IMG/VR virus record: IMGVR_UViG_3300047496_000203
Span: 1 to 39,155 of that record
Length of the DNA: 39,155 bases
Source of the DNA: a virus
Reading direction: 5' to 3' (one strand)
The notes under the pieces were generated by a model. The model made no database searches and was not told the origin of the DNA. It was given only the letters and a program-made list of their open reading frames with translations. The translations under genes were made by a program, and so were the position numbers. Shown piece after piece: positions 3,423-39,155 of this stretch. Position 1 is the first letter of the stretch, and each line of letters opens with the position of its first letter.

Positions 3423-5315
3423 ATGGCTATACCCCCTGTTCCTTCAAGTAAAATAAAATATATCAATAATCGTGAGCTACTAAAAGAGATACATGAAAGT
3501 AAAAAATCTTTTTGTTATTCTTTAGAACCTAAATATGCAGATTTTGATGTTATTGTTCATAATATTAACGAGATTACCCCAGAATTGATAGACGCTGTTA
3601 GAGAAAAGAAATCAAAGCCACGCGGAAAACCGTCTCTTCCTATGGAAGAACCAGAAAATATTGTAGTTCGTTTGATGACTTATACTCATATTCCTCTCGA
3701 TCCAGATCGTGTGCGTAAAAGCCGCGTAACGGATCAATCTTACGCAAGAACCAGTTTTCCTCCATTCAAGCATTATATTTTGACTTCTGATGGGTTGAAA
3801 GAAGTTTGCCGATCACATTGGACCGGCGGTTTCGAAAATGGTTATTTTGTTGCGGATGGAGGTAAGATTAACAATCGTTTAGCCATGATGTTCATGTTAT
3901 TAGTAGAGCGTTATTCGAGAAGAACTAACTGGCGCGGTTACTGCCATTCTTTGGATACCGAAGCATTAACTCAACGAGGATGGATTTCTGGAAATGAAAT
4001 CAATATGGATGATATTATTTTATCGTATAAAGAAGGTAATTTAATTTGGTCAAAAATAAAATCTATTTATAAAGATGAAAACTATAATGGAAAAATGTTT
4101 AATATAACAGGTAAAGCAAAAATAGATGCTTTTATTACACCGGGCCATAAATTTTTAACTGAAAACGGATTAAAACCAATAGAATATTTAACAGATGCAG
4201 ATAAAATTATTCTCACTGGTAATCCCGTTGAGAATTTAACAGAAATATATGAGGACGCTTTTGTTGAATTAGTTGGATGGGTTGTTACCGAAGGTTGTTT
4301 TGAATTTCAAAAAATTAGAAAATATCCACGCATTACAATATACCAAAACGAAGGAATATATGCCGATAGAATTCGCAATTGTGCTAAAAAATTGGGAACC
4401 ACCTTTAGCGAATATCATAGAAGAGGCAATAGCGTAGCATTTCATTTAAAAAAAGAAATTTGCAATAAAATTGCAAAAGTAGTAAAGGTTGAGTCAGGAT
4501 TTAATAAAGTCCTTAAACCAGAGTTTATTGTTTCACTAACAACTGCACAAAGAGAATTGCTGATACAAACAATGATAGATGCTGATGGCTGGAGAGGTTC
4601 AACTGGTGGTCGTCGAATAGGGTATGATCAAAAATGTAAAAATCACATTGATTCCTTTATATTTCTTTGCACATTAGCGGGATATAGAACAAAAACAAAA
4701 GTAGTAAATATGTCTAATTATGATAAAACTAATTTTGATTGTCAAATGTATAGATTAAATATACTTAAACGGGAGCCTGTAATAAAAGTTAAAGATATTA
4801 ATTTTAATGGGGGTAAAAAATCAGGAACTTTCGATGATCCTAATATTCCTACCGAAATTTTTAAAGGAACGGTATGGTGTCCTGAAACTGAATTTGGTTC
4901 TTTTATATGTAGACGAAACGGGATAGTTTATCTCTCTGGCAATAGTTATGTAGATGAATTCCGGGGTCAAGCTTTACTTCAACTGTCACAGATTGGCCTT
5001 CAATTTGATGAATCTAAATCAGATAATCCGTTTGCTTTTTATACAACTGCCATCAAAAATTCATTTACAAGAGTATTTAATTTAGAGAAAAAATCACAAA
5101 ATATTCGTGATGATCTTCTTATTATTGCTGGTGTTCAACCAAGTTATACACGAACATTAGATAATGAATTTGATCAACGCGATTATGGAGAGAAGAAACG
5201 CGTTTCTATTAAGAAACCGTCACCGAAAAAAATCGAAAAGCCAATAATTGAGGAAGAAACGCCAAAACGTGGCATAGGTATGCATTCAAATGCTGATTTA
5301 TTTAGAGGAAAATAA
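3423..5315 (+). CDS. 55: Late-transcription sigma factor gp55, interrupted by an intein
   Basis: The 630-residue precursor is a sigma-factor gene split by an in-frame intein at residues 174-507. The joined host protein would be about 296 residues, larger than T4 gp55 (185) because of a longer N-terminus. Across the junction it reads NWRGY then SYVDEFRGQALLQ, followed by SDNPFAFYTTAIKNSFTRVF and NLEKKSQ. This is the conserved region 2-like core of gp55 family sigma factors, which direct host RNA polymerase to late promoters. Matching late boxes occur in this window. The C-terminal 60 residues are basic and Pro-rich, ending near HSNADLF; the RNA polymerase or clamp contact could lie there by analogy with T4. 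The sigma factor should be inactive until splicing. Confidence 0.85.
   Translation: MAIPPVPSSKIKYINNRELLKEIHESKKSFCYSLEPKYADFDVIVHNINEITPELIDAVREKKSKPRGKPSLPMEEPENIVVRLMTYTHIPLDPDRVRKSRVTDQSYARTSFPPFKHYILTSDGLKEVCRSHWTGGFENGYFVADGGKINNRLAMMFMLLVERYSRRTNWRGYCHSLDTEALTQRGWISGNEINMDDIILSYKEGNLIWSKIKSIYKDENYNGKMFNITGKAKIDAFITPGHKFLTENGLKPIEYLTDADKIILTGNPVENLTEIYEDAFVELVGWVVTEGCFEFQKIRKYPRITIYQNEGIYADRIRNCAKKLGTTFSEYHRRGNSVAFHLKKEICNKIAKVVKVESGFNKVLKPEFIVSLTTAQRELLIQTMIDADGWRGSTGGRRIGYDQKCKNHIDSFIFLCTLAGYRTKTKVVNMSNYDKTNFDCQMYRLNILKREPVIKVKDINFNGGKKSGTFDDPNIPTEIFKGTVWCPETEFGSFICRRNGIVYLSGNSYVDEFRGQALLQLSQIGLQFDESKSDNPFAFYTTAIKNSFTRVFNLEKKSQNIRDDLLIIAGVQPSYTRTLDNEFDQRDYGEKKRVSIKKPSPKKIEKPIIEEETPKRGIGMHSNADLFRGK
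3942..4943 (+). mobile_element. Intein in gp55 with LAGLIDADG endonuclease
   Basis: This is 334 residues, from Cys174 (CHSLDTEALTQRGW, block A) to Asn507. Block B is FITPGHKFLTENG. Two LAGLIDADG-type helices are seen, LVGWVVTEGCF and LIQTMIDADGW, so a homing endonuclease is present. The C-terminal end is ICRRNGIVYLSGN with Ser508 as the +1 residue. The usual penultimate His is Gly (SGN/S), a variant seen in some natural inteins. It interrupts the core of the sigma factor between Tyr173 and Ser508. Confidence 0.88.
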
Positions 5316-5368: not shown

Positions 5369-7396
5369 ATGAGTATGAAGACAATAGATTTGTTCGCCGG
5401 GATCGGTGGAATTCGTATACCTTTTGATGAGCTTGGTTGCAAATGTGTTTTCAGTTCCGATTGGGATAAAAATGCACAAATCACCTATGAATCCAACTTT
5501 GGTCATAAACCATATGGCGACATTACAGCTATTGATTCAAAAGATATTCCGGATCATGATATTTTACTTGGGGGTTTTCCTTGTTTTATTGCAGATACAA
5601 CTGTTCTAACATCAGAAGGTTTAAAACCAATACAAGATGTTAAAATTGGTGAGTTAGTTTTAACTCACAAACAACGTTGGAAAAGAGTATTGTCTATTAT
5701 GAAAAAAGACAATGCTCCTACTATGATTATAAAAGGCCAAGGTTCTTGTGGTATAGAAACCACGTCGGAACATCCATTTTACGTGCGAAGCCGTCAGAAT
5801 AAAAATAATGGAAAAAAGCACTGGAGAGAATTTTCTGACGCTCAATGGAAAGAGGCTGAAAATCTTACTACTAATCATTTTTGGGCTTCACCAACGGTTT
5901 TTCCAGTTTTAACTATTCCAGATATAGAATACGCTTCATTAGAACTAAAAAATAATACTACAAATATCAATAAGTTTGGCGAAAAAATTTTAGACTTAAA
6001 GATAGAGAGTCGAGAATTTATGTATTTTATAGGAAGATGGATTGGCGACGGCTGGCTTGGAACCGGTCCCAGAAAAGGGCGTTCAGAAAATAATAGGGTA
6101 GCAAACATATTTTTATGTTCTTCTTACGAGGAAGAAAATGAGGTAGAAGAAATACTTAAAAGTATCAATCTATCTTTCACTAAAGTTAGGGAACGAACTG
6201 TCTTAAAATATATAATTGGTTCTAAACCGTTAACTAAATGGTTAGAAACCAATTTTGGAAGATATGCTTCGGGAAAAAAAATACCAGGATGGGTATTTGG
6301 TATGTCTCATGAGCTTAAGCAATCGCTCTTTGATGGTTATATGAGTGCTGATGGTCATACCAGTTATCAGAAAAAAGGAAATGGGAGGGTAAGAAGATTA
6401 TCATCAATAAACAAAAATCTATTAATGTCATTTCGGTTACTTTTATCATCATTGGAAATAACCACTTCTTTACATGAAACGAAAAAGTCTCCTACTTATG
6501 TTATAGAAGATAGAATTGTAAAACATATTTACTCTTTGACTGCTTATGACGATAATAGAAGTGCATTTTTTGACAATAATATTCTGTGGGGGAAGATCAG
6601 ATCAATAATGGACACTGACGATTTGAAGACGGTTTATAACATTGAAGTAGAAGAAGATAATAGCTATGTGGCTGATGGTATAATAGTTCATAATTGTCAG
6701 CCTTTCAGTGCGATTGGTAGCCGCAAGGGTTTTCAATCGACGCAAGGAACGTTGTTCTTCAACATTGCATCTATTATTGATGCAAAAGCCCCAAGAGCTT
6801 TCTTGCTCGAAAATGTGAAGAACTTCAAATCCCATGATGGCGGCAAGACATATGAAGTTGTCGAAGCAACATTGAATGAACTTGGATACCATGTCCATAC
6901 CAAAATTTTAAATGCTTTAGATTATGGTCTACCACAAAAACGCGAGCGAACAATTATCGTTGGCTTCAAACACAAAGTGGATTTTAAATTTCCCGATCCT
7001 CTTGGATCGCCTCCAAGCCTTTCTACAATTCTTGAACCTGAGGCGGATAATGACGAAAAGCTTAGAGCTTCTGATTACATTATTCAAAGACGTTTAGATC
7101 GATTGGCCAGCCAAGGTTCGGCTCAACCGTTTTATCCGTCTATCTGGCATGAGAATAAGAGCGGAAATATATCAGTGTTGCCGTATTCGGTAGCTTTGAG
7201 GGCTGATGCTTCACATAATTATATTCTTGTCAACGGAGTAAGGCATCCTTCAGCAAGAGAATTATTGAGATTACAAGGCTTTCCTGATACATTCAAGATC
7301 ATATTACCGTTAAGACATATTCGAAAACAAGCTGGAAATTCAGTTCCAGTTCCTATGATCAGAGCGGTGGCAAAGAAAATAATGGAAGTATTATAA
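5369..7396 (+). CDS. DNA (cytosine-5) methyltransferase, interrupted by an intein
   Basis: The 675-residue precursor contains a 371-residue intein; the spliced enzyme is 304 residues, a normal size for a small C5 methyltransferase. Motif I is DLFAGIGGIRIPFD and motif IV is GGFP-CQPFS once joined. Motif VI is LLENVKNF, motif VIII QKRERTIIVGF, motif IX SARELLRLQGFPD and motif X GNSVPVPMIRA. All core motifs are present, so the enzyme should be active after splicing. The intein ends immediately before the catalytic Cys443. It is followed after 2 nt by a second methyltransferase and then by two nuclease-like genes, so it may be the modification half of a restriction-modification set. ATG 5375 is an alternative start; neither has a clear ribosome site. 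Confidence 0.9.
   Translation: MSMKTIDLFAGIGGIRIPFDELGCKCVFSSDWDKNAQITYESNFGHKPYGDITAIDSKDIPDHDILLGGFPCFIADTTVLTSEGLKPIQDVKIGELVLTHKQRWKRVLSIMKKDNAPTMIIKGQGSCGIETTSEHPFYVRSRQNKNNGKKHWREFSDAQWKEAENLTTNHFWASPTVFPVLTIPDIEYASLELKNNTTNINKFGEKILDLKIESREFMYFIGRWIGDGWLGTGPRKGRSENNRVANIFLCSSYEEENEVEEILKSINLSFTKVRERTVLKYIIGSKPLTKWLETNFGRYASGKKIPGWVFGMSHELKQSLFDGYMSADGHTSYQKKGNGRVRRLSSINKNLLMSFRLLLSSLEITTSLHETKKSPTYVIEDRIVKHIYSLTAYDDNRSAFFDNNILWGKIRSIMDTDDLKTVYNIEVEEDNSYVADGIIVHNCQPFSAIGSRKGFQSTQGTLFFNIASIIDAKAPRAFLLENVKNFKSHDGGKTYEVVEATLNELGYHVHTKILNALDYGLPQKRERTIIVGFKHKVDFKFPDPLGSPPSLSTILEPEADNDEKLRASDYIIQRRLDRLASQGSAQPFYPSIWHENKSGNISVLPYSVALRADASHNYILVNGVRHPSARELLRLQGFPDTFKIILPLRHIRKQAGNSVPVPMIRAVAKKIMEVL
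5582..6694 (+). mobile_element. Intein in the C5 methyltransferase with LAGLIDADG endonuclease
   Basis: This is 371 residues, from Cys72 (CFIADTTVLTSEGLKPI, block A) to Asn442 (VADGIIVHN, block G). Block B is GIETTSEHPFYV. LAGLIDADG-type segments are FMYFIGRWIGDGWLG and LKQSLFDGYMSADGH. The +1 residue is Cys443, which is also the catalytic cysteine of the host enzyme's PCQ motif. All class 1 splicing residues are present. Confidence 0.9.
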
Positions 7397-17433: not shown

Positions 17434-17604
17434 ATGATCGAACAACCTTCCGTCAAGATGACTTCTGAAGAACTTGCTGCCATCGCCGCTCGCGTGAAGG
17501 CGAAGCGCGCTCTTCGTGAATCTCTTGAACATAATCTTGATCAACTCGTCGGCTTCAATTCCCTTGACGAAATGCTTAAACATATGGATCAACAAAAGGG
17601 CTAA
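17434..17604 (+). CDS. Small helical protein, possible antitoxin partner
   Basis: The 56-residue frame begins MIEQPSVKMTSEELAAIAAR and ends MLKHMDQQKG. It has AGGAG 9 nt before the ATG and a strong promoter just upstream. Its stop overlaps the next start (TAATG). It is predicted to be mostly helical and mixed in charge. Being first in a two-gene operon with a RelE-like protein, it is in the antitoxin position, but it has no recognised antitoxin motif. GC content is higher than in the neighbours. Confidence 0.7.
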   Translation: MIEQPSVKMTSEELAAIAARVKAKRALRESLEHNLDQLVGFNSLDEMLKHMDQQKG

Positions 17605-18218
17605 TGAGATTATATGAAATTGCTTCGGTAATACATCGGTTAGAGCAAACCAAAAGATTTATTCAAAGTTATAATCGGTACGAACAAGGTTTTCCTCGGC
17701 TTCGAGATCAGTTTATAGCTTTTTGCCAAGCAAAAATACAAGGCCGTAAATTTGGCCAAAAAGATTATCCCTTCACCAACGAACCTTTAAAAGGTCTCGG
17801 TCATGCCCATCTTATTCATGGGAAAGTAATTCTTATTTACTACATAAAGAACCGTATTCTTTATCTATACGATCTCGTGGAGCATACCGCGATTGATACT
17901 CCAGCGCAATCTAAAGCTTTACGCAAATTTATTGACGGATTATCTCAAAAAGATTTTTCTGAATTGAATATTAATTCAGAACAAAAAACACTGTCGAAGG
18001 AACAAAAAAATCATCTTAACGCGTTATTCTATGAGATAGCGGCAAGTATGCCTGAACTAATTAAAGATGCATTGCATGGTTCTTGGGATGACCTTAACGA
18101 TTTTGCCATGGAAACTGTTCAGGAACCCATAGAATTAATTTATGCTGCATATGGTGGACAACAACAATTAAAAAACGATCTGGCTACCGTTTTAAGACAA
18201 TTTTCCATTGCCCATTAA
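17604..18218 (+). CDS. Protein with a RelE/ParE-like N-terminal domain
   Basis: The protein is 204 residues. Residues 15-100 read FIQSYNRYEQGFPRLRDQF, then FTNEPLKGLGHAHLIHGKVI and LIYYIKNRILYLYDLVEHTA. The sequence of helix, then LKG-H-G, then ILIY, then LYLYDLVEHT matches the layout of RelE/YafQ/ParE superfamily toxins. There LKG, the arginine-rich strand, the IY strand and GTH are the landmarks. The last 100 residues are an additional helical region not found in standard RelE toxins. It is coupled to the 56-residue gene upstream. A toxin role is an inference; an alternative is a host ribosome or mRNA-targeting takeover factor. Confidence 0.5.
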   Translation: MRLYEIASVIHRLEQTKRFIQSYNRYEQGFPRLRDQFIAFCQAKIQGRKFGQKDYPFTNEPLKGLGHAHLIHGKVILIYYIKNRILYLYDLVEHTAIDTPAQSKALRKFIDGLSQKDFSELNINSEQKTLSKEQKNHLNALFYEIAASMPELIKDALHGSWDDLNDFAMETVQEPIELIYAAYGGQQQLKNDLATVLRQFSIAH

Positions 18219-18257: not shown

Positions 18258-21200
18258 ATGATCAAATTTAAATCGTTAACTATGAAAAACTTCCTCTCAA
18301 TTGGGGCGGTTACACTTCCACTTAACTTAGATGAACACGGTTTGACTCTCGTTTTGGGAGCAAATAATGATGTAAACGGCGGTTTGTCTAGAAATGGTGC
18401 GGGCAAAGCCCAACCAACTTCAGCAAATATTTTAACCCCTAATGGTTTTATTAAAATGGGGAATTTGAAGATTGGTGATTTGGTGACCACGCCAGATGGA
18501 AGTGAAGCTCCGATCATCGGAATTTACCCGCAGGGAAAAATTAAGACGGTTAGAGTGAATTTCTCTGATGGTCGTTCAACTGAATGCTGTGAAGATCATT
18601 TATGGAAGGTATGGGGTAAATTTTTAAAAAATGAGCATAAAGCTGTTTCGTCTATCGATTGGGGATGGGATACTCTCACTCTTCAAGAAATAAAACAAAA
18701 TTTAGGCAGAAAAAACTTCTCATCAAGAACCTATGTTCCTTTATTAGAGCCATACGATTCTAAAGATATAGAACTCCCAATTGATCCAAAGCTTTTGGGA
18801 TTATTGCTTGGTGATGGCGCGCTTGAAGATAAGCGCGTAAGGATTAGCACCGCTGACGTAGAAATAAAAGATTATATAGAAAAAGTTATACCAGAAGGAT
18901 ACATTCTTAAGAAATATAGAGGAAATATCATAATCATATTTCCCAGGAATTCAGCAGATTTTAGAAAACATAATACTCATGCTATAGTCACACCACTTAG
19001 AAAACTTGACTTGGCGGGTAAAAGATCATGGGAAAAATTTATACCCGCTATTTATAAAAACTCTTCACCATTACAGAAAAGATTACTGTTACAAGGTTTA
19101 ATCGATACTGACGGAACAGTTGATAGAAACGGTGTGATATCTTATTGCACTACAAGTTCGCAACTAGCTAAGGATGTTCAAGAAATAATTTGGTCTCTAG
19201 GAGGAATCGCGAATATCAGCACCTTAACAAAAAATTTTACTTATAAGGGCGTTAAGAAAATAGGAAGAGCTTGCTATATTGTTAGAATAAGAATTAAAGA
19301 CTCATACAAAATTGTTTCTTTGCAACGTAAACTGGATCGTTTACCAAAAAATTATCAATACAATGAATGTTTACGATTGGAGATAACTTCAATAGAAGAG
19401 ATAGAAAATAAAGAGTCTCAATGTATAATGATTGACCATCCAGACCATTTATACATAACTGATGATTATATCGTTACTCATAATACCACAATCGCGCAAG
19501 GGATTAACTATGCGTTATACGGTAAACCTTTAACTAAGATCAAAATTCCAAATTTATGTAACAATATCAATAATAAAGGCATGTTAGTTACTTTAACATT
19601 TGAGAAGAATAATATTGAATACCGCATAGAGCGTGGTAAAAAACCAGATTTAATGCACTTCTATATCAACAATATAAAAGTTAAACTTGAGGAAGATGAT
19701 AATTCTGAAGGCGAAAACAAATTCACTCAGCAAGCTATAGAACGAATTGTGTGTATGTCACACAACATGTTCAAGCAAATCGTCATTCTTAACACGATGA
19801 CCGAACCATTTTTAAGAATGTCTGCCAAGGATCAAAGAGAACTTATCGAAGAATTACTTGGTGTTATGCAGATTAGCCAGCGTGCCGAAGCTCTAAAATC
19901 GATGATGGTTGAATCTAAAGACGCGATAAAAGATCAAAATTCGATTTTAAGAGCTACCATAGAAGCCAACAACCGTATCGAAAACGCGATTGCCAGCGCA
20001 ACTACTACTTCAAACGAATGGGCCAGGTATCACGCGATTTCCCTGGAAAGAATGACTGCCGAAATTGATTCATTACAGGGCATCGACTACGACGCAGAGA
20101 TTGCTATTTTTGATTATCTTGAAGATTGGCTTTCTAAAAATAAAACAATCAGCGAAGGTCTCGCTTCGGCTACTAGAGAACTAAAACTTCTCAATCGTGA
20201 GGTTTCGACTATTGAAGCTGAAATTTCACGATTTATAAAAGACTCCCATATCAATATTGACGTTCAAGTTACGAGATTTGAACAAGAAATTGGTCGAAAA
20301 AATAAAGACATCAGCCGTAAATCTGAATCATTAATCAAGGATAAAGCTGATCTTCTGAAAATAAATGATGATATTGCTAATCCAAATGAACATACGTGTG
20401 TTTCATGTAATCAAAAATTGGTTGGAACAGATCATCTGAACACGGTTCTCGATAATCTACGTGGACTTGCTAAGAAACTTCAATCCAAGATTACTCGTGA
20501 AGAAAACGAAATCATTGATCTCGAAAAAGAAATTGAGCATATTTATAACGAAATCCAAACTTTACAGGATAATGCGGAGGCGCGGCGAATAGATAATGAA
20601 TCTAAAGCAGAAGATAAACGTCGCCTACTGAGTTCTCCAAAAATGAAAATGCTTTTGCAAGAAAAACAATTAGCAAAATTTGAAGAGATGCGGGAAGAGC
20701 TTGGAGAAAAACCAAATTCTGTTTTCTCAAGTAGAGATGAAATCTACAAAACTAAAAGCGTGTTTGATGCTTTTATACATGAACGTGAAGTTGCCCTTCA
20801 ACAACAGAATCCCTTTGCCGCCCAAATCGATAGCTTGCGCGAAACATTACAACCTATTGATTATGAACCGATCAATAAACTTGACTTACTCATCAAACAT
20901 CAAGAGTTTCTTTTGAAATTATTAACATCAAAAGATAGCTTCATTCGTAAGAAAATTATTGATCAAAATCTTTCTTACCTTAACAACCGCCTTGATCACT
21001 ATCTCGATAAACTGGGTCTTCCACATCAAGTCAAATTTTTAAATGATTTGTCCGTAGAAATTACAATGCTTGGACATGATCTCGACTTCGAACAGTTGTC
21101 TCGTGGTGAAATGAATCGTCTAATAATGGCCACATCATGGAGCTTTCGAGATGTATGGGAAAGTCTGAATGAATCTGTCAATCTGATGTTCCTTGACGAA

Positions 21201-21383
21201 ATGATCGATAATGGTCTAGATGACATTGGGGCTGAATCAGCGTTGGCTACGTTGAAGTTTATGGCTAGAGAACGCCACAAAAATATTTTCTTGATTAGTC
21301 ACAAAGACAGCATTATCTCTCGGGTTGATCATATCTTGACCGTTCGCAAGGAAGGTGGGTTTACTCAATTTGAGCATGAATAA
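18258..21383 (+). CDS. 46: Recombination endonuclease subunit gp46 (Rad50/SbcC-like), interrupted by an intein
   Basis: The 1041-residue precursor contains a 359-residue intein; the joined ATPase is about 682 residues. The N-terminus KFKSLTMKNFLSIGAV is typical of SbcC/gp46. Walker A is split: SRNGAGK (to Lys50) joins TTIAQGINYALYG (from Thr410). After long coiled coils comes a zinc hook, HTCVSCNQKL (CxxC). Near the end are the ABC signature LSRGEMNRLIMATSW and Walker B NLMFLDEMIDNGLD. With gp47 it forms the end-resecting nuclease complex used in phage recombination and host DNA breakdown. The ATP site cannot form until the intein is removed. The last 8 nt overlap the next gene. Confidence 0.92.
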   Translation: MIKFKSLTMKNFLSIGAVTLPLNLDEHGLTLVLGANNDVNGGLSRNGAGKAQPTSANILTPNGFIKMGNLKIGDLVTTPDGSEAPIIGIYPQGKIKTVRVNFSDGRSTECCEDHLWKVWGKFLKNEHKAVSSIDWGWDTLTLQEIKQNLGRKNFSSRTYVPLLEPYDSKDIELPIDPKLLGLLLGDGALEDKRVRISTADVEIKDYIEKVIPEGYILKKYRGNIIIIFPRNSADFRKHNTHAIVTPLRKLDLAGKRSWEKFIPAIYKNSSPLQKRLLLQGLIDTDGTVDRNGVISYCTTSSQLAKDVQEIIWSLGGIANISTLTKNFTYKGVKKIGRACYIVRIRIKDSYKIVSLQRKLDRLPKNYQYNECLRLEITSIEEIENKESQCIMIDHPDHLYITDDYIVTHNTTIAQGINYALYGKPLTKIKIPNLCNNINNKGMLVTLTFEKNNIEYRIERGKKPDLMHFYINNIKVKLEEDDNSEGENKFTQQAIERIVCMSHNMFKQIVILNTMTEPFLRMSAKDQRELIEELLGVMQISQRAEALKSMMVESKDAIKDQNSILRATIEANNRIENAIASATTTSNEWARYHAISLERMTAEIDSLQGIDYDAEIAIFDYLEDWLSKNKTISEGLASATRELKLLNREVSTIEAEISRFIKDSHINIDVQVTRFEQEIGRKNKDISRKSESLIKDKADLLKINDDIANPNEHTCVSCNQKLVGTDHLNTVLDNLRGLAKKLQSKITREENEIIDLEKEIEHIYNEIQTLQDNAEARRIDNESKAEDKRRLLSSPKMKMLLQEKQLAKFEEMREELGEKPNSVFSSRDEIYKTKSVFDAFIHEREVALQQQNPFAAQIDSLRETLQPIDYEPINKLDLLIKHQEFLLKLLTSKDSFIRKKIIDQNLSYLNNRLDHYLDKLGLPHQVKFLNDLSVEITMLGHDLDFEQLSRGEMNRLIMATSWSFRDVWESLNESVNLMFLDEMIDNGLDDIGAESALATLKFMARERHKNIFLISHKDSIISRVDHILTVRKEGGFTQFEHE
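18408..19484 (+). mobile_element. Class 3-type intein in gp46 (Ala1, Trp-Cys-Thr) with LAGLIDADG endonuclease
   Basis: This is 359 residues, from Ala51 (AQPTSANILTPNGFIKMG) to Asn409 (DDYIVTHN), +1 residue Thr410. The first residue is Ala, not Cys or Ser. A Trp follows the block B His by two (EDHLWKVW, Trp116), a Cys sits in block F (SQCIMIDHPDH, Cys389), and a Thr precedes the final His-Asn (VTHN, Thr407). This non-contiguous W-C-T set defines class 3 inteins, which splice through the block F cysteine. LAGLIDADG-type segments are LLGLLLGDGAL and LLLQGLIDTDGTV. Confidence 0.88.
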
Positions 21384-23649: not shown

Positions 23650-23738
23650 CATATCTCTATCTGGCGTCATTTTCATGACAGCCTTCGTCATCATTGATTT
23701 TTCTTGATATTCTTGATTTCATATGCTATCAACCGCAC

Positions 23739-24953
23739 ATGAAATCAGAACTTATTCAAATTCTTCAAGACCGTGGGCTAATTCATCAAGCGACAAATCT
23801 TGATGAATTGGACAACCTAGCTGCGTCTCAAAAGATTATCGCCTACATCGGTTTCGACTTGACTGCCGATAGTTTACACGTCGGATCGCTAATCCAAATT
23901 ATGGTAATGCGATGGATGAAAAAGTTGGGTCATCATCCAATTGTTCTGCTTGGTGAAGCTACCACCAGAATTGGTGATCCTACCGGAAAATCTTCAATGC
24001 GACCTATGCTCTCATCCGAAAAAATTGAGCGCAATCGTGTCGGCATAGTAAGTATTTTTGACAGACTTCTTGGTCATTCCCAGCACATATCTAATGCGAC
24101 TTGGTTCAATGATAATGGCCCATCGTTTATGAATTTCCTCTCTGAATACGGGCGCCATTTTACCGTCAATAAAATGCTTGCGTTGGAATCAGTTAAGTCT
24201 CGTCTCAATCGGCAAGAACCTATGACCTTGCTTGAGTTCAACTATATGTTGATGCAAGCGGTGGACTTTCTTAAATTGTTTCGGACACAAGATTGTATGT
24301 TGCAAGTCGGCGGTTCCGATCAGTGGGGAAATATCACTAATGGTGTTGATCTAATTAGGCGTGTAGAGCACGCAGAAGCCTTTGGCTTGACCACACCGTT
24401 GATGGTAAATTCTAAGGGCGAAAAAATGGGTAAGACTGTTGGTGGCGCCATTTGGCTTGATCCAGACAAGACTTCTGCGTTTGAGTTTTGGCAGTTCTGG
24501 CGCAATGTTGAAGATGATAAGGTTGAAGAATTTCTTCGACTATTCACCGAAATTAGTCTGGATGATATCGTCACACTTATGGTTCGAGGCATCAACCTAG
24601 CCAAAAGCACCCTGGCAACGGAAGTGACTGCAATGGTTCATGGCCGGGCCACGGCTGAAGACGTCGCCAAGATGGCCGCTCAAAAGGTCCCTGATGCCGA
24701 ATTGATGCTTGATCTACCCTCGCATACCATTTCCGAAGAAAGCCTTCAGAATGGCGTTAATTTGGCTCAAATTCTTTTTGATGCTGGTTTGGTGGCATCC
24801 AAGACTGAAGCGGACAAATTGGCTAACAATGGTGGTATCAAGATCAATGGAAAACAAGTCAAAGACGTTCGAGCTAATATTTCCAAAGAAACTTTTGGTG
24901 AAACATTCGTTGCCGCTATCGGCAAAAAGAAAATGATTCGAGTTATCATATGA
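23739..24953 (+). CDS. tyrS: Tyrosyl-tRNA synthetase
   Basis: The 404-residue protein is a complete bacterial-type class I tyrosyl-tRNA synthetase. It has AYIGFDLTADSLHVGSL (HIGH-like HVGS, residues 47-50), TRIGDPTGKSSMR, LMQAVDFL, QVGGSDQWGNITNGVDL (the tyrosine pocket region) and KGEKMGKTVGGAIWLD (KMSKS-like KMGKT, 229-233). A C-terminal S4 RNA-binding domain follows (LAQILFDAGLVASKTEADKL, GGIKINGKQVKDVRA). It would charge tRNA-Tyr in the host cell during infection. The KMGKT variant and the length resemble alphaproteobacterial TyrS. The start at 23739 gives the normal N-terminus. No tRNA-Tyr gene is seen in this window. Confidence 0.93.
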   Translation: MKSELIQILQDRGLIHQATNLDELDNLAASQKIIAYIGFDLTADSLHVGSLIQIMVMRWMKKLGHHPIVLLGEATTRIGDPTGKSSMRPMLSSEKIERNRVGIVSIFDRLLGHSQHISNATWFNDNGPSFMNFLSEYGRHFTVNKMLALESVKSRLNRQEPMTLLEFNYMLMQAVDFLKLFRTQDCMLQVGGSDQWGNITNGVDLIRRVEHAEAFGLTTPLMVNSKGEKMGKTVGGAIWLDPDKTSAFEFWQFWRNVEDDKVEEFLRLFTEISLDDIVTLMVRGINLAKSTLATEVTAMVHGRATAEDVAKMAAQKVPDAELMLDLPSHTISEESLQNGVNLAQILFDAGLVASKTEADKLANNGGIKINGKQVKDVRANISKETFGETFVAAIGKKKMIRVII

Positions 24954-25315: not shown

Positions 25316-26557
25316 TTAGTTTGGAAAACATGACTTTAGAAAATCTGGCATCGATTGTTCCAAGTATTTTTTGACTTCTGACGGAGACTTACCAATTAGA
25401 GGAGAAAGGGCAGACACCCAACCTCTTTTAGTAAAATCTATACCAGAGTTTTCGATGTTTGTCCGTATCTCTTTTACAGAGCAATTTTCAAAATGATAAC
25501 GTTTCATATTACTAGAACCCCCAGAAAAATTACATTCTGGGCAAATAGCTTCTTCTTGCTTACCTCTGGTATGTCTCATTTTGGTTTTAGTTTCTTCTGA
25601 TTTCGGCCTACCCTTTGTAGTATCGCTTATTTTTTGTTTCCACGATGCAATTTCTTCCGAGGATTTATCGGCCATAGACTGTTTCCCATACATTGGGTTA
25701 TTTTCGCCAGACATTTTAACTGATAAGTTCTTCTTATGATTATCCAATTGTTCTTCAGTAAAATTTTTAAAGCAAGATATTCCAGTTTTTTTGCCTTTTC
25801 TAATGACAGATAAATGTTGTTTTAGCTCATCTATTTGTTCTTCTGACATATTTTCATATGGCGATTTACCGTATCTTACACTAAGTTCTCCGGTGCGGCC
25901 ATGCATTGGATTGTTTGACCCTCTCCAATTTTCATCCAACCATTTTTCATATTCTTCGTGTGTTTTTTTACGTTTAAATGAATGATTTTCGCCTAATCTA
26001 TATCTCTCTCGGAATTCTACGCGGTCTTCTTCGCACATACCATGTTCCCAGCAAAAATTCATATCAGGGTAGATGTCTTTAATTTTATTGTATATTCTAT
26101 GAGAATCTTCGTCTTCTGTTAGTAAAGGAGGAAGAAACTTTATAGGAGGGATTATTTTGTTATAAAATTTTCTTGATCCATCTGGATTTCTTGCCCGCAA
26201 AACATCGTTATCTATCATGCATTCCACTTCGGCATAAGTCAAAGACCCCTTAGTATTTCGTAAGGATTCAATGATAAAGATAAAATTTTCCCGAGGATCG
26301 TTCTTTATTACTTCATTTAATTCCGTAGAAGAACTTGTGTATCGTTTCCAATTAGACTCTTTTTCTGTCCAGATTTTATTTTTTCTTGTCACTAACTTCT
26401 TACTGGTTCTCTCCTTAAATTGTTTCTTGCCAATATATTCTCTATTGTTCTTTTTATCTATTATGCGGTAGATGAAACCAAACCATTCATCAATATTTAC
26501 TATTTCCGGATAGACCCAATGACCATTATTTGGTTCTTCTTTTGATTTTACAACCAT
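25316..26557 (-). CDS. GIY-YIG homing endonuclease with NUMOD3 repeats
   Basis: The 413-residue protein has an N-terminal nuclease domain, FGFIYRIIDKKNNREYIGKK (GIY-YIG-like), then SNWKRYTSSSTELNEVIK and LTYAEVECMIDNDVL (the Glu region). The middle has NUMOD3-type DNA-binding repeats: RGSNNPMHGR, GENNPMYGKQSM and KISDTTKGRPKSEETKTKM. The C-terminus has a CPEC-H-C zinc-like motif (ICPECNFSGG through YHFENC). This is the usual layout of free-standing phage homing endonucleases. AAGGAAA precedes the ATG and a late box lies 35 nt upstream. It is convergent with the TyrS side and divergent from the next gene. Confidence 0.8.
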   Translation of the reverse strand: MVVKSKEEPNNGHWVYPEIVNIDEWFGFIYRIIDKKNNREYIGKKQFKERTSKKLVTRKNKIWTEKESNWKRYTSSSTELNEVIKNDPRENFIFIIESLRNTKGSLTYAEVECMIDNDVLRARNPDGSRKFYNKIIPPIKFLPPLLTEDEDSHRIYNKIKDIYPDMNFCWEHGMCEEDRVEFRERYRLGENHSFKRKKTHEEYEKWLDENWRGSNNPMHGRTGELSVRYGKSPYENMSEEQIDELKQHLSVIRKGKKTGISCFKNFTEEQLDNHKKNLSVKMSGENNPMYGKQSMADKSSEEIASWKQKISDTTKGRPKSEETKTKMRHTRGKQEEAICPECNFSGGSSNMKRYHFENCSVKEIRTNIENSGIDFTKRGWVSALSPLIGKSPSEVKKYLEQSMPDFLKSCFPN

Positions 26558-36966: not shown

Positions 36967-37164
36967 ATGACTTTGGTGAAAACATTGAAAACCTTAAATA
37001 CTTCTGATGATATAGCTTTTACTGGAAAGACTTTCGGTGAATTATACAATAAAACAAAAGAAAAAATATCTGGTATAGAAGAAACTGGGTATAAATTAAT
37101 TCAACAATGGGCTCATCATACAAAAGATGGTCAAGAAATATTATTTGAGGATGATACAATATGA
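36967..37164 (+). CDS. Small protein upstream of the portal gene
   Basis: The 65-residue protein begins MTLVKTLKTLNTSDDIAFTG and ends GQEILFEDDTI. ATG 36967 is preferred over ATG 36949, since a late box and the short leader precede it. The last four bases overlap the portal start (ATGA). It is probably a late structural or assembly protein; no family is recognised. Confidence 0.65.
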   Translation: MTLVKTLKTLNTSDDIAFTGKTFGELYNKTKEKISGIEETGYKLIQQWAHHTKDGQEILFEDDTI

Positions 37165-39155
37165 GTTGGAAAAAACATTTTAGAACTATAAAAAGTAATT
37201 CTCTTAATTCAATCAATTATCAAAGTAGTAGTGAAGGCTCGCCAGTTACAAGTTCGAAGATATCTTCATATCTTCCAGAAGTTTTTGCTGGCCATCCATC
37301 CAGAATCCAAAGATATTACGCATTTGATGATTGCGACCGTGATAGTGATATTAATGCGGCATTAGATACTATTGCGGATTTTTGTACTCAATCAGAAGAA
37401 CAGAGTGATGACCCTTTTGATATCATTTATAATGAAGAAGCAAATGAAACTGAAGTTACGCTTATCAAGAGTAACTTGAAATTATGGGTTAAACTGAATG
37501 ATTTTAAGAAGCGTTTATGGCATATTTTTAGAGGAACAATAAAGAATGGTGATTCATTTTTCTTAGTTGATCCTGAAACATACGAATGGCTTTGGGTAGA
37601 TCATTTCTCAGTAGAAATGGTTAAAGTTGATGAAACTAAAGGTAAAGAACCTGATGAGTATATCATTCGAGGTTTAGATATCAACAGACAAGCTAAATTT
37701 GCTACTCGTGGTGTTGATCCTTCTCAATATAAAACGCCTTTTGGTACTTCTTTAGTTCCTAATGCGCGGCCCCAAGGTAATCCAGGGGGTGCTTCGACCA
37801 CCAATAACGCGTTTCAATTACAAGGATCAAATCGCGATCTTCGTCAGCAAGTTGGTCAAAAAGTCAATGAATTATCGGTAATTGATGCTCAACACATGGT
37901 TCATTTGTCTCTTTCGGTTGGAATGGATGTTAATTGGCCGTTTGGTTCTTCAATTCTTGAACCAATATTTAAAACCTTCAAACAAAAAGAATTACTTGAA
38001 GATTCTATTCTCATTTATAGAGTTATGCGTGCGCCTGAACGAAGAGTATTTAAAATTGATGTTGGCTCCATGCCACCAATTCGTGCAAAAGCTCACATAG
38101 AAATGATCAAAAATGAAATTCATCAAAGAAGAATTCCAAACCGCTGTCTTTCTTTAAAAACAAATATTTATTTGTTAGATGGAAGATTAATTCCTCTATC
38201 TCAAATAATTACTGAGCACAATGAAGGTAAACAAAACTGGGTCTACTCTTGTGATCCTGATACAGGAAAAATTGTTCCTGGTAAAATTACTTGGGCAGGA
38301 AATACTAAATCACAGACCAAAGTATTAAGATTGACTTTAGATAATGGTAAAACTATTACCTGCACTCCTGATCATAAGTTTCCAATTTTAGGTAAGGGCT
38401 TCGTTGAAGCACAAAATCTAGAAATAGGAGAGAGTTTTATCCCTTTATATACTCAAGAAAATAAGTATAGTGATAAGAAAAGTAAATATATTCAAATATT
38501 CGATAATGCTGAGAAAAAATGGAAATATGTTCATCGTGTCGTAGCAGAATATTTTAGAGACACTATTGTTGGTGAAAAAGTTCATTGTGAACAATATAAA
38601 ACTGAGTTAAAACAAACTGTCCATCACCTAAATTTTGACCGTTACAATAATAATCCAGAAAATTTATGTTGGATGAATGCAAAAGATCATATTATTTTTC
38701 ACGGAGAAACAGGAAGCGACGCGGCTAAAAATTATTGGAAAAACTTAAAATATAATATTCAAGCGTTTGATGAAAGAATTAAAAAATTAACTATTCAAAA
38801 TAAAATTTTTTGGAAGACTCCGGAAGGTCAAGATATTCTGGTGAAACGAAAAATAGTTTATGATAAAACATTATTTGACATGAGCAAATTAATTCTTGCT
38901 TCTTCTACTTTGACCAATCCACGCATGTCATGGCGGCAATCGGCAAAAGAATTGAATAATAATGTAGAATTTATGACTTACTATAAGAAATTAAACCCAC
39001 ATATCAATTCTGGAGTTAAACAATTAGATAATTTTACGCTAAATCATCTAAAATTTATGGTCAAATCTCATGGTTATAAATCTTGGCAAGATTTTAAGAA
39101 AGATTTTACTAATATTGATTACTCTCTTTATCGTTTTAATCAAAAACTATATGAC
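37161..39155 (+). CDS. 20: Portal vertex protein gp20, interrupted by an intein (C-terminal part beyond the right edge)
   Basis: The frame is open from ATG 37161 to the window end (665 codons). Residues 1-328 are portal: YLPEVFAGHPSRIQRYYAFD, DRDSDINAALDTIADFCT, FRGTIKNGDSFFLVDPETYE, VIDAQHMVHLSLS, WPFGSSILEPIFKTFKQKEL and ILIYRVMRAPERRVFKIDVG. YR-(M/T)RAPERRVF-ID-G is the hallmark of gp20, the dodecameric portal through which DNA is packaged and to which the tail attaches. After IPNR the intein begins at Cys329. The rest of the intein and the C-terminal portal part lie outside the window. The start overlaps the upstream stop (ATGA). Confidence 0.92.
   Translation, partial: MSWKKHFRTIKSNSLNSINYQSSSEGSPVTSSKISSYLPEVFAGHPSRIQRYYAFDDCDRDSDINAALDTIADFCTQSEEQSDDPFDIIYNEEANETEVTLIKSNLKLWVKLNDFKKRLWHIFRGTIKNGDSFFLVDPETYEWLWVDHFSVEMVKVDETKGKEPDEYIIRGLDINRQAKFATRGVDPSQYKTPFGTSLVPNARPQGNPGGASTTNNAFQLQGSNRDLRQQVGQKVNELSVIDAQHMVHLSLSVGMDVNWPFGSSILEPIFKTFKQKELLEDSILIYRVMRAPERRVFKIDVGSMPPIRAKAHIEMIKNEIHQRRIPNRCLSLKTNIYLLDGRLIPLSQIITEHNEGKQNWVYSCDPDTGKIVPGKITWAGNTKSQTKVLRLTLDNGKTITCTPDHKFPILGKGFVEAQNLEIGESFIPLYTQENKYSDKKSKYIQIFDNAEKKWKYVHRVVAEYFRDTIVGEKVHCEQYKTELKQTVHHLNFDRYNNNPENLCWMNAKDHIIFHGETGSDAAKNYWKNLKYNIQAFDERIKKLTIQNKIFWKTPEGQDILVKRKIVYDKTLFDMSKLILASSTLTNPRMSWRQSAKELNNNVEFMTYYKKLNPHINSGVKQLDNFTLNHLKFMVKSHGYKSWQDFKKDFTNIDYSLYRFNQKLYD
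38145..39155 (+). mobile_element. Intein in the portal protein with an HNH endonuclease (partial)
   Basis: It begins at Cys329 (CLSLKTNIYLLDGRLIPLSQ, block A); block B is TITCTPDHKFPIL. The endonuclease region is HNH-type: YVHRVVAEYFRD, then TVHHLNFDRYNNNPENLCWM and DHIIFHGE. No LAGLIDADG motif is seen in the visible 337 residues. The C-terminal splice site (expected His-Asn) is not reached. Confidence 0.88.

Follow-up and report, generated by a model that had tools for sequence, protein, structure and literature searches.

A predicted class 3 intein with a LAGLIDADG endonuclease domain interrupts the Walker A motif of a phage gp46 gene

INTRODUCTION

The gp46 gene on a 39,155-base IMG/VR virus fragment (the window, by which we mean that whole stretch of DNA) is interrupted within its ATP-binding loop. 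This raises the question of what the inserted element is, how the protein could be restored and how the element came to occupy this site. Class 3 inteins are defined by Trp at B:12, Cys at F:4, Thr at G:5 and Ser or Thr at +1, with no nucleophile at residue 1 (PMC5222942, PMC5050341, PMC7891396). A count in NCBI nr gave 1701 class 3 inteins, 82.5% of them with LAGLIDADG motifs (PMC7891396), and the classic insertion site lies between the invariant Lys and Thr of the P-loop (PMC5050341).

RESULTS

The element lies between the Lys and Thr of the gp46 Walker A motif

The interrupted gene is a 1041-aa open reading frame (18258 to 21383, plus strand) encoding an SbcC/Rad50-like gp46. Against the PHROG profiles, residues 410 to 1039 matched phrog_77, an SbcC-like phage family (E 7e-83), while the profiles matched by residues 43 to 422 were those of terminases and helicase loaders, presumably a result of inteins occurring within those families. 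The features of the locus, all on the plus strand, are as follows.

18258 to 18407, plus: gp46 N-extein, residues 1 to 50, ending SRNGAGK (Walker A through Lys); matched by the N termini of PA5oct and other gp46 proteins and, over residues 1 to 52, by phrog_21388 (exonuclease)
18408 to 19484, plus: predicted class 3 intein, 359 aa, Ala51 to Asn409, with an inserted LAGLIDADG endonuclease domain
18408 to 18410, plus: Ala51, intein residue 1 (block A:1), without a nucleophile
18597 to 18605, plus: block B His114-Leu-Trp116 (B:10 His, B:12 Trp); in an alignment of 10, His is invariant and Trp is present in 9
18792 to 18818, plus: LAGLIDADG motif 1, LLGLLLGDG, residues 179 to 187, acidic residue intact
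19086 to 19115, plus: LAGLIDADG motif 2, LLQGLIDTDG, residues 277 to 286, acidic residue intact; Pfam LAGLIDADG_3, E 1.4e-8
19422 to 19424, plus: Cys389 (block F:4), predicted first nucleophile, invariant in alignments of relatives
19476 to 19484, plus: Thr407-His408-Asn409 (G:5, G:6, G:7), intein C terminus
19485 to 19487, plus: Thr410, the +1 residue, first of the C-extein
19485 to 21380, plus: gp46 C-extein, 632 aa, with a zinc-hook CxxC; the phrog_77 match
21381 to 21383, plus: gp46 stop codon
9848 to 10900, plus: gp47/SbcD-like nuclease, the partner of gp46, outside the intein; phrog_100, E 2e-54, and Pfam Metallophos

The junctions of the element read SRNGAGK50/A51QPTSANILTPNGF and VT407H408N409/T410TIAQGINYALYGK, and gp46 resumes after it with TTIAQGINYALYGK. 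Excision would join the site as TTGTCTAGAAATGGTGCGGGCAAA/ACCACAATCGCGCAAGGG and restore the Walker A motif. Together with the family match, the nearby gp47 partner and the zinc hook, whose cysteines (C305 and C308) were invariant across all 8 aligned gp46 proteins, this identifies the host gene as gp46. Relatives lacking the element read through the site uninterrupted (NGTGK/TT), and an empty site of the form NGxGK[TS] was present in all 80 of the closest gp46 relatives in IMG/VR, none of the closest exteins found exceeding about 47% identity to that of the window. These observations confirm that the element is an intein in the gp46 Walker A motif, between Lys and the next Thr. The original prediction had placed the insertion between GAGK and TT, and both this position and its numbering of Ala51, Cys389 and Thr407 agree exactly with the translation. 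Of its borders, 18408 to 19487, the start was correct, but the intein stops at Asn409 (19484), the last three bases being the codon of the +1 Thr.

Directly upstream of gp46 lies a 204-aa open reading frame (17604 to 18218, plus strand) that matched nothing in Pfam or PHROG. Judged by eye, the N-terminal half of its product resembles a RelE/YafQ-type toxin fold.

The splicing residues and the predicted fold are those of a class 3 intein

Residue 1 of the intein is Ala51, not Cys, Ser or Thr. Block B reads CCEDH114LW116, which places Trp116 at B:12, and the block F region reads SQC389IMIDHPDHLYITDDYIVT407H408N409, with Cys389 at F:4, Thr407 at G:5 followed by His-Asn, and Thr410 at +1. The block F Cys of Msm DnaBi1, the class 3 intein used as reference, aligns with Cys389. 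The Ala at residue 1 and the Trp-Cys-Thr set had been noted in the original prediction and are all present. Between the splicing blocks, two LAGLIDADG motifs with their acidic residues and the LAGLIDADG_3 match indicate a homing endonuclease domain.

Solved structures matched by sequence included gp41-1, Msm DnaBi1 and MchDnaB1. In an AlphaFold2 model of the intein (pLDDT 87.2, pTM 0.88), the whole chain matched PI-SceI (Z 28.2). The predicted splicing domain has a HINT fold, and its best match among splicing-only inteins was the class 3 intein Msm DnaBi1 (6bs8; Z 18.7, 1.5 A over 123 residues), with gp41-1, MchDnaB1 and others close behind. The solved class 3 inteins Msm DnaBi1 and MchDnaB1 (6rix), which the predicted domain fits at 1.5 to 2.0 A, are mycobacterial DnaB mini-inteins without an endonuclease, whereas the intein of the window has an endonuclease domain.

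A tblastn search of phages with the intein returned 586 records (best E 9e-74), in 516 of which one place covered at least 80% of the intein stretch. At the level of sequence similarity, the match to the intein family is far beyond chance, and the diagnostic residues were conserved in those relatives that were examined. The nearest were inteins of jumbo-phage helicases and terminases with the identical P-loop point and residues. Those of Shewanella phage FishSpeaker (DNA helicase), Serratia phage BUCT660, PhiPA3 and EL share the residue set, the LAGLIDADG domain and the Walker A K/T position (K/S in EL) at about 40 to 46% identity; their hosts are helicases or terminases, whereas the host in the window is gp46, an SMC/ABC-type ATPase. 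Bacterial relatives lie at GK/T of ClpB-, DnaB-, RecD- and RecG-like proteins, host names that were assigned by the P-loop sequence on either side of the intein; these relatives too have the block F Cys and THN. Across the class 3 inteins in P-loops of phage helicases and terminases, or of ClpB and RecD in bacteria, identity to the window's intein reached about 45%.

In a tree restricted to the splicing domain, with class 1 controls, a branch supported at 100/99 placed the window's intein with class 3; the class 1 intein gp41-1 also fell on that side. A basal placement next to the class 1 rows was not rejected (p 0.43) by the approximately unbiased (AU) test, which says little on a 125-column alignment with long branches. 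The phylogenetic check proposed for the original prediction came out on the expected side, but with a class 1 intein on that side too and a weak test. The other class 1 controls fall elsewhere, and gp41-1 (PDB 6qaz) ends in THN like the class 3 family. With a class 1 intein of this ending in the class 3 part of the tree, THN alone proves nothing.

The class 3 assignment of the original prediction held for every sequence-level feature that could be checked, and the nearest relatives are themselves class 3. We consider it very probable that a class 3 intein carrying a LAGLIDADG endonuclease, for which splicing and homing are predicted, occupies the Walker A Lys/Thr junction of gp46. Given the abundance of LAGLIDADG-bearing class 3 inteins and the classic P-loop site, both its class and its place are expected.

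The same gp46 site is occupied in other phages

The original prediction had implied that gp46 was a new kind of host for class 3 inteins. This is weakened by Lactobacillus phage LfeInf, in which an insertion at the same place is annotated in GenBank, and by at least 17 further gp46 genes; the site is thus already occupied in at least 18 other phages, and the window is not the first found there. The SbcC-like LfeInf_087 (KP054477, "putative intein"), a protein of the same family as gp46 of the window, carries its intein at the same Walker A point (GK/S), with Ala1 and the block F Cys, but at 28 to 33% identity to that of the window, with Phe-Cys-Ser instead of Trp-Cys-Thr and in a phage of the Herelleviridae. 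A same-site class 3 intein in gp539 (gp46) of Salicola phage SCTP-2 is not annotated as an intein. Searches of the open literature found no description of an intein in phage gp46, SbcC or Rad50, most subscription papers lying outside their reach.

Searching IMG/VR with patterns for the C-terminal junction (Thr-His-Asn running into the P-loop helix of gp46, so that Thr was the only fixed member of the Trp-Cys-Thr set and residue 1 was free) yielded 21 contigs with 16 distinct gp46 inteins. These (L112 to L132) share the site and the class 3 set with the window: Trp B:12 was present in all 14 with a complete N terminus and Cys F:4 in 16 of 16. A hydrophobic residue at G:5 before His-Asn, as in many class 1 inteins, was found at the gp46 site in 0 contigs versus 14 for Thr, under a narrow pattern in which the extein codons were also fixed. 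Position 1 was Ala in 11 inteins and Ser in three (L113, 466 to 1533; L114, 8444 to 9511; and L130). The three Ser1 inteins keep Trp-Cys-Thr, so that residue 1 is a possible nucleophile in these naturally occurring members of class 3.

Endonuclease decay was seen in the gp46 inteins of SCTP-2, L126, L112 and L121. In SCTP-2 and L126 the LAGLIDADG motifs are broken through loss of the acidic residues, whereas those of the window are intact; the L121 intein, at 269 aa versus 359 aa in the window, has lost much of the endonuclease.

Alignment ends had also suggested the gp46 genes of Klebsiella phage KP13-7 and Listeria phage LP-048 as carriers. Both were rejected, their Walker A motifs being intact.

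Distribution and origin of the gp46 inteins

On a tree of gp46 C-exteins with 54 tips, intein presence required 12 changes, at least 9 of them forced by well-supported branches; as the tree was enriched for carriers by the search, this number describes patchiness and not a rate. In several pairs of carriers the inteins were more alike than the exteins (81 versus 61%, 73 versus 54% and 68 versus 53% identity), which is what movement of the element between phages would produce. Judged from these comparisons, the gp46 inteins show the pattern of a homing cycle. For the window's intein, the intact LAGLIDADG motifs and the patchy distribution point to homing.

The intein of the window may have been gained independently of the other gp46 inteins, with a different P-loop gene, RecD- or ClpB-like, as its source, an account compatible with its assignment as a class 3 intein. 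An intein tree of 67 rows placed 13 gp46 inteins in one clade (96/93), and the intein of the window fell outside it, grouping with bacterial RecD inteins (91/85, not starred); phage helicase inteins are 43 to 46% identical to it. However, its identity to a gp46 intein is equally high (46% to L123), and AU tests did not reject trees that joined it to those 13 in one clade (p 0.139) or united all 17 gp46 inteins (p 0.107). We regard independent gain as a serious possibility, although not the one we would favor. Similarly, we suggest only tentatively that class 3 inteins may have landed in the Walker A motif of phage gp46/Rad50 repeatedly, arriving on more than one occasion from other P-loop genes, with the copy in the window representing a separate entry. 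If so, the gp46 loci would between them show a single site with active alleles alongside decaying, shortened and empty ones.

Other elements on the fragment

A second intein (3942 to 4943; 334 aa) lies in the open reading frame at 3423 to 5315 (plus strand), which encodes a T4 gp55-like late sigma factor. It is of the class 1 type, begins with Cys1 and ends SGN/S, without the penultimate His. A third, a 371-aa class 1 intein at 5582 to 6694 in the open reading frame at 5369 to 7396 (plus strand), has Cys1 and VHN/C and interrupts a C5-cytosine methyltransferase directly ahead of its catalytic Cys (GGFP/CQPF); other phage methyltransferases carry similar inteins. In the portal protein open reading frame (37161 to 39155, plus strand), IPNR is followed by a HINT-like stretch with Cys1 and an HNH-type endonuclease, truncated by the end of the contig; this insertion is probably a fourth intein within 39 kb. 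A free-standing GIY-YIG (SegE-like) homing endonuclease gene (25316 to 26557, minus strand) brings the homing-type elements on the fragment to at least five. It also encodes a phage tyrosyl-tRNA synthetase (23694 to 24953, plus strand; phrog_9270, E 2e-123).

DISCUSSION

By analogy with the class 3 inteins whose splicing steps have been studied (PMC5222942, PMC7664689), the HINT domain would fold after translation, and Cys389 of block F, positioned by His114, Trp116 and Thr407, would act first by attacking the Lys50-Ala51 bond. Cys389 would take the N-extein as a thioester, giving a first branched intermediate, and the +1 Thr410 would then take it over in a second. Cyclization of Asn409, helped by His408, would release the intein, and an O-N shift would leave ...NGAGK-TT..., a complete Walker A motif. 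Because Lys50 and the next Thr form the core of the nucleotide-binding loop, the unspliced protein should not bind ATP properly, and gp46 should be an active ATPase only after splicing. At the DNA level, the endonuclease domain would cut intein-less gp46 at the joined P-loop codons, and the element would be copied in by recombination.

Two other readings would change this picture. The intein could be decayed and unable to splice, with gp46 inactive or replaced in this phage, a fate that the endonuclease decay in four other gp46 inteins brings to mind. However, the window's element has an open frame and retains every splicing residue together with the acidic residue of each LAGLIDADG motif, and both the gp46 extein and its gp47 partner appear complete, which makes this reading very unlikely. 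Still less probable, to the point that we set it aside, is a class 2 intein, which would also lack a residue-1 nucleophile and so be compatible with Ala1 (PMC5222942), but the full Trp-Cys-Thr set is present, Cys F:4 is invariant in every aligned relative, the +1 residue is Thr, and in one tested class 3 intein a natural Cys+1 failed to replace Cys F:4 (PMC5222942).

The class 3 intein of gp46 is an ordinary, textbook member of a large known class, and views of intein mechanism are unchanged by it. With it, gp46, the phage Rad50, joins the P-loop proteins occupied by class 3 inteins, and the holders of the gp46 site make up a sizeable, mostly unannotated class 3 set. Ser1 variants occur in it naturally, as do forms with a decayed endonuclease, alongside many empty alleles, which together offer a workable system in which to study the homing cycle and to ask if Ser1 matters in class 3. 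Since gp46 and gp47 act in the recombination on which homing relies, the element interrupts a gene of the very pathway that it probably needs.
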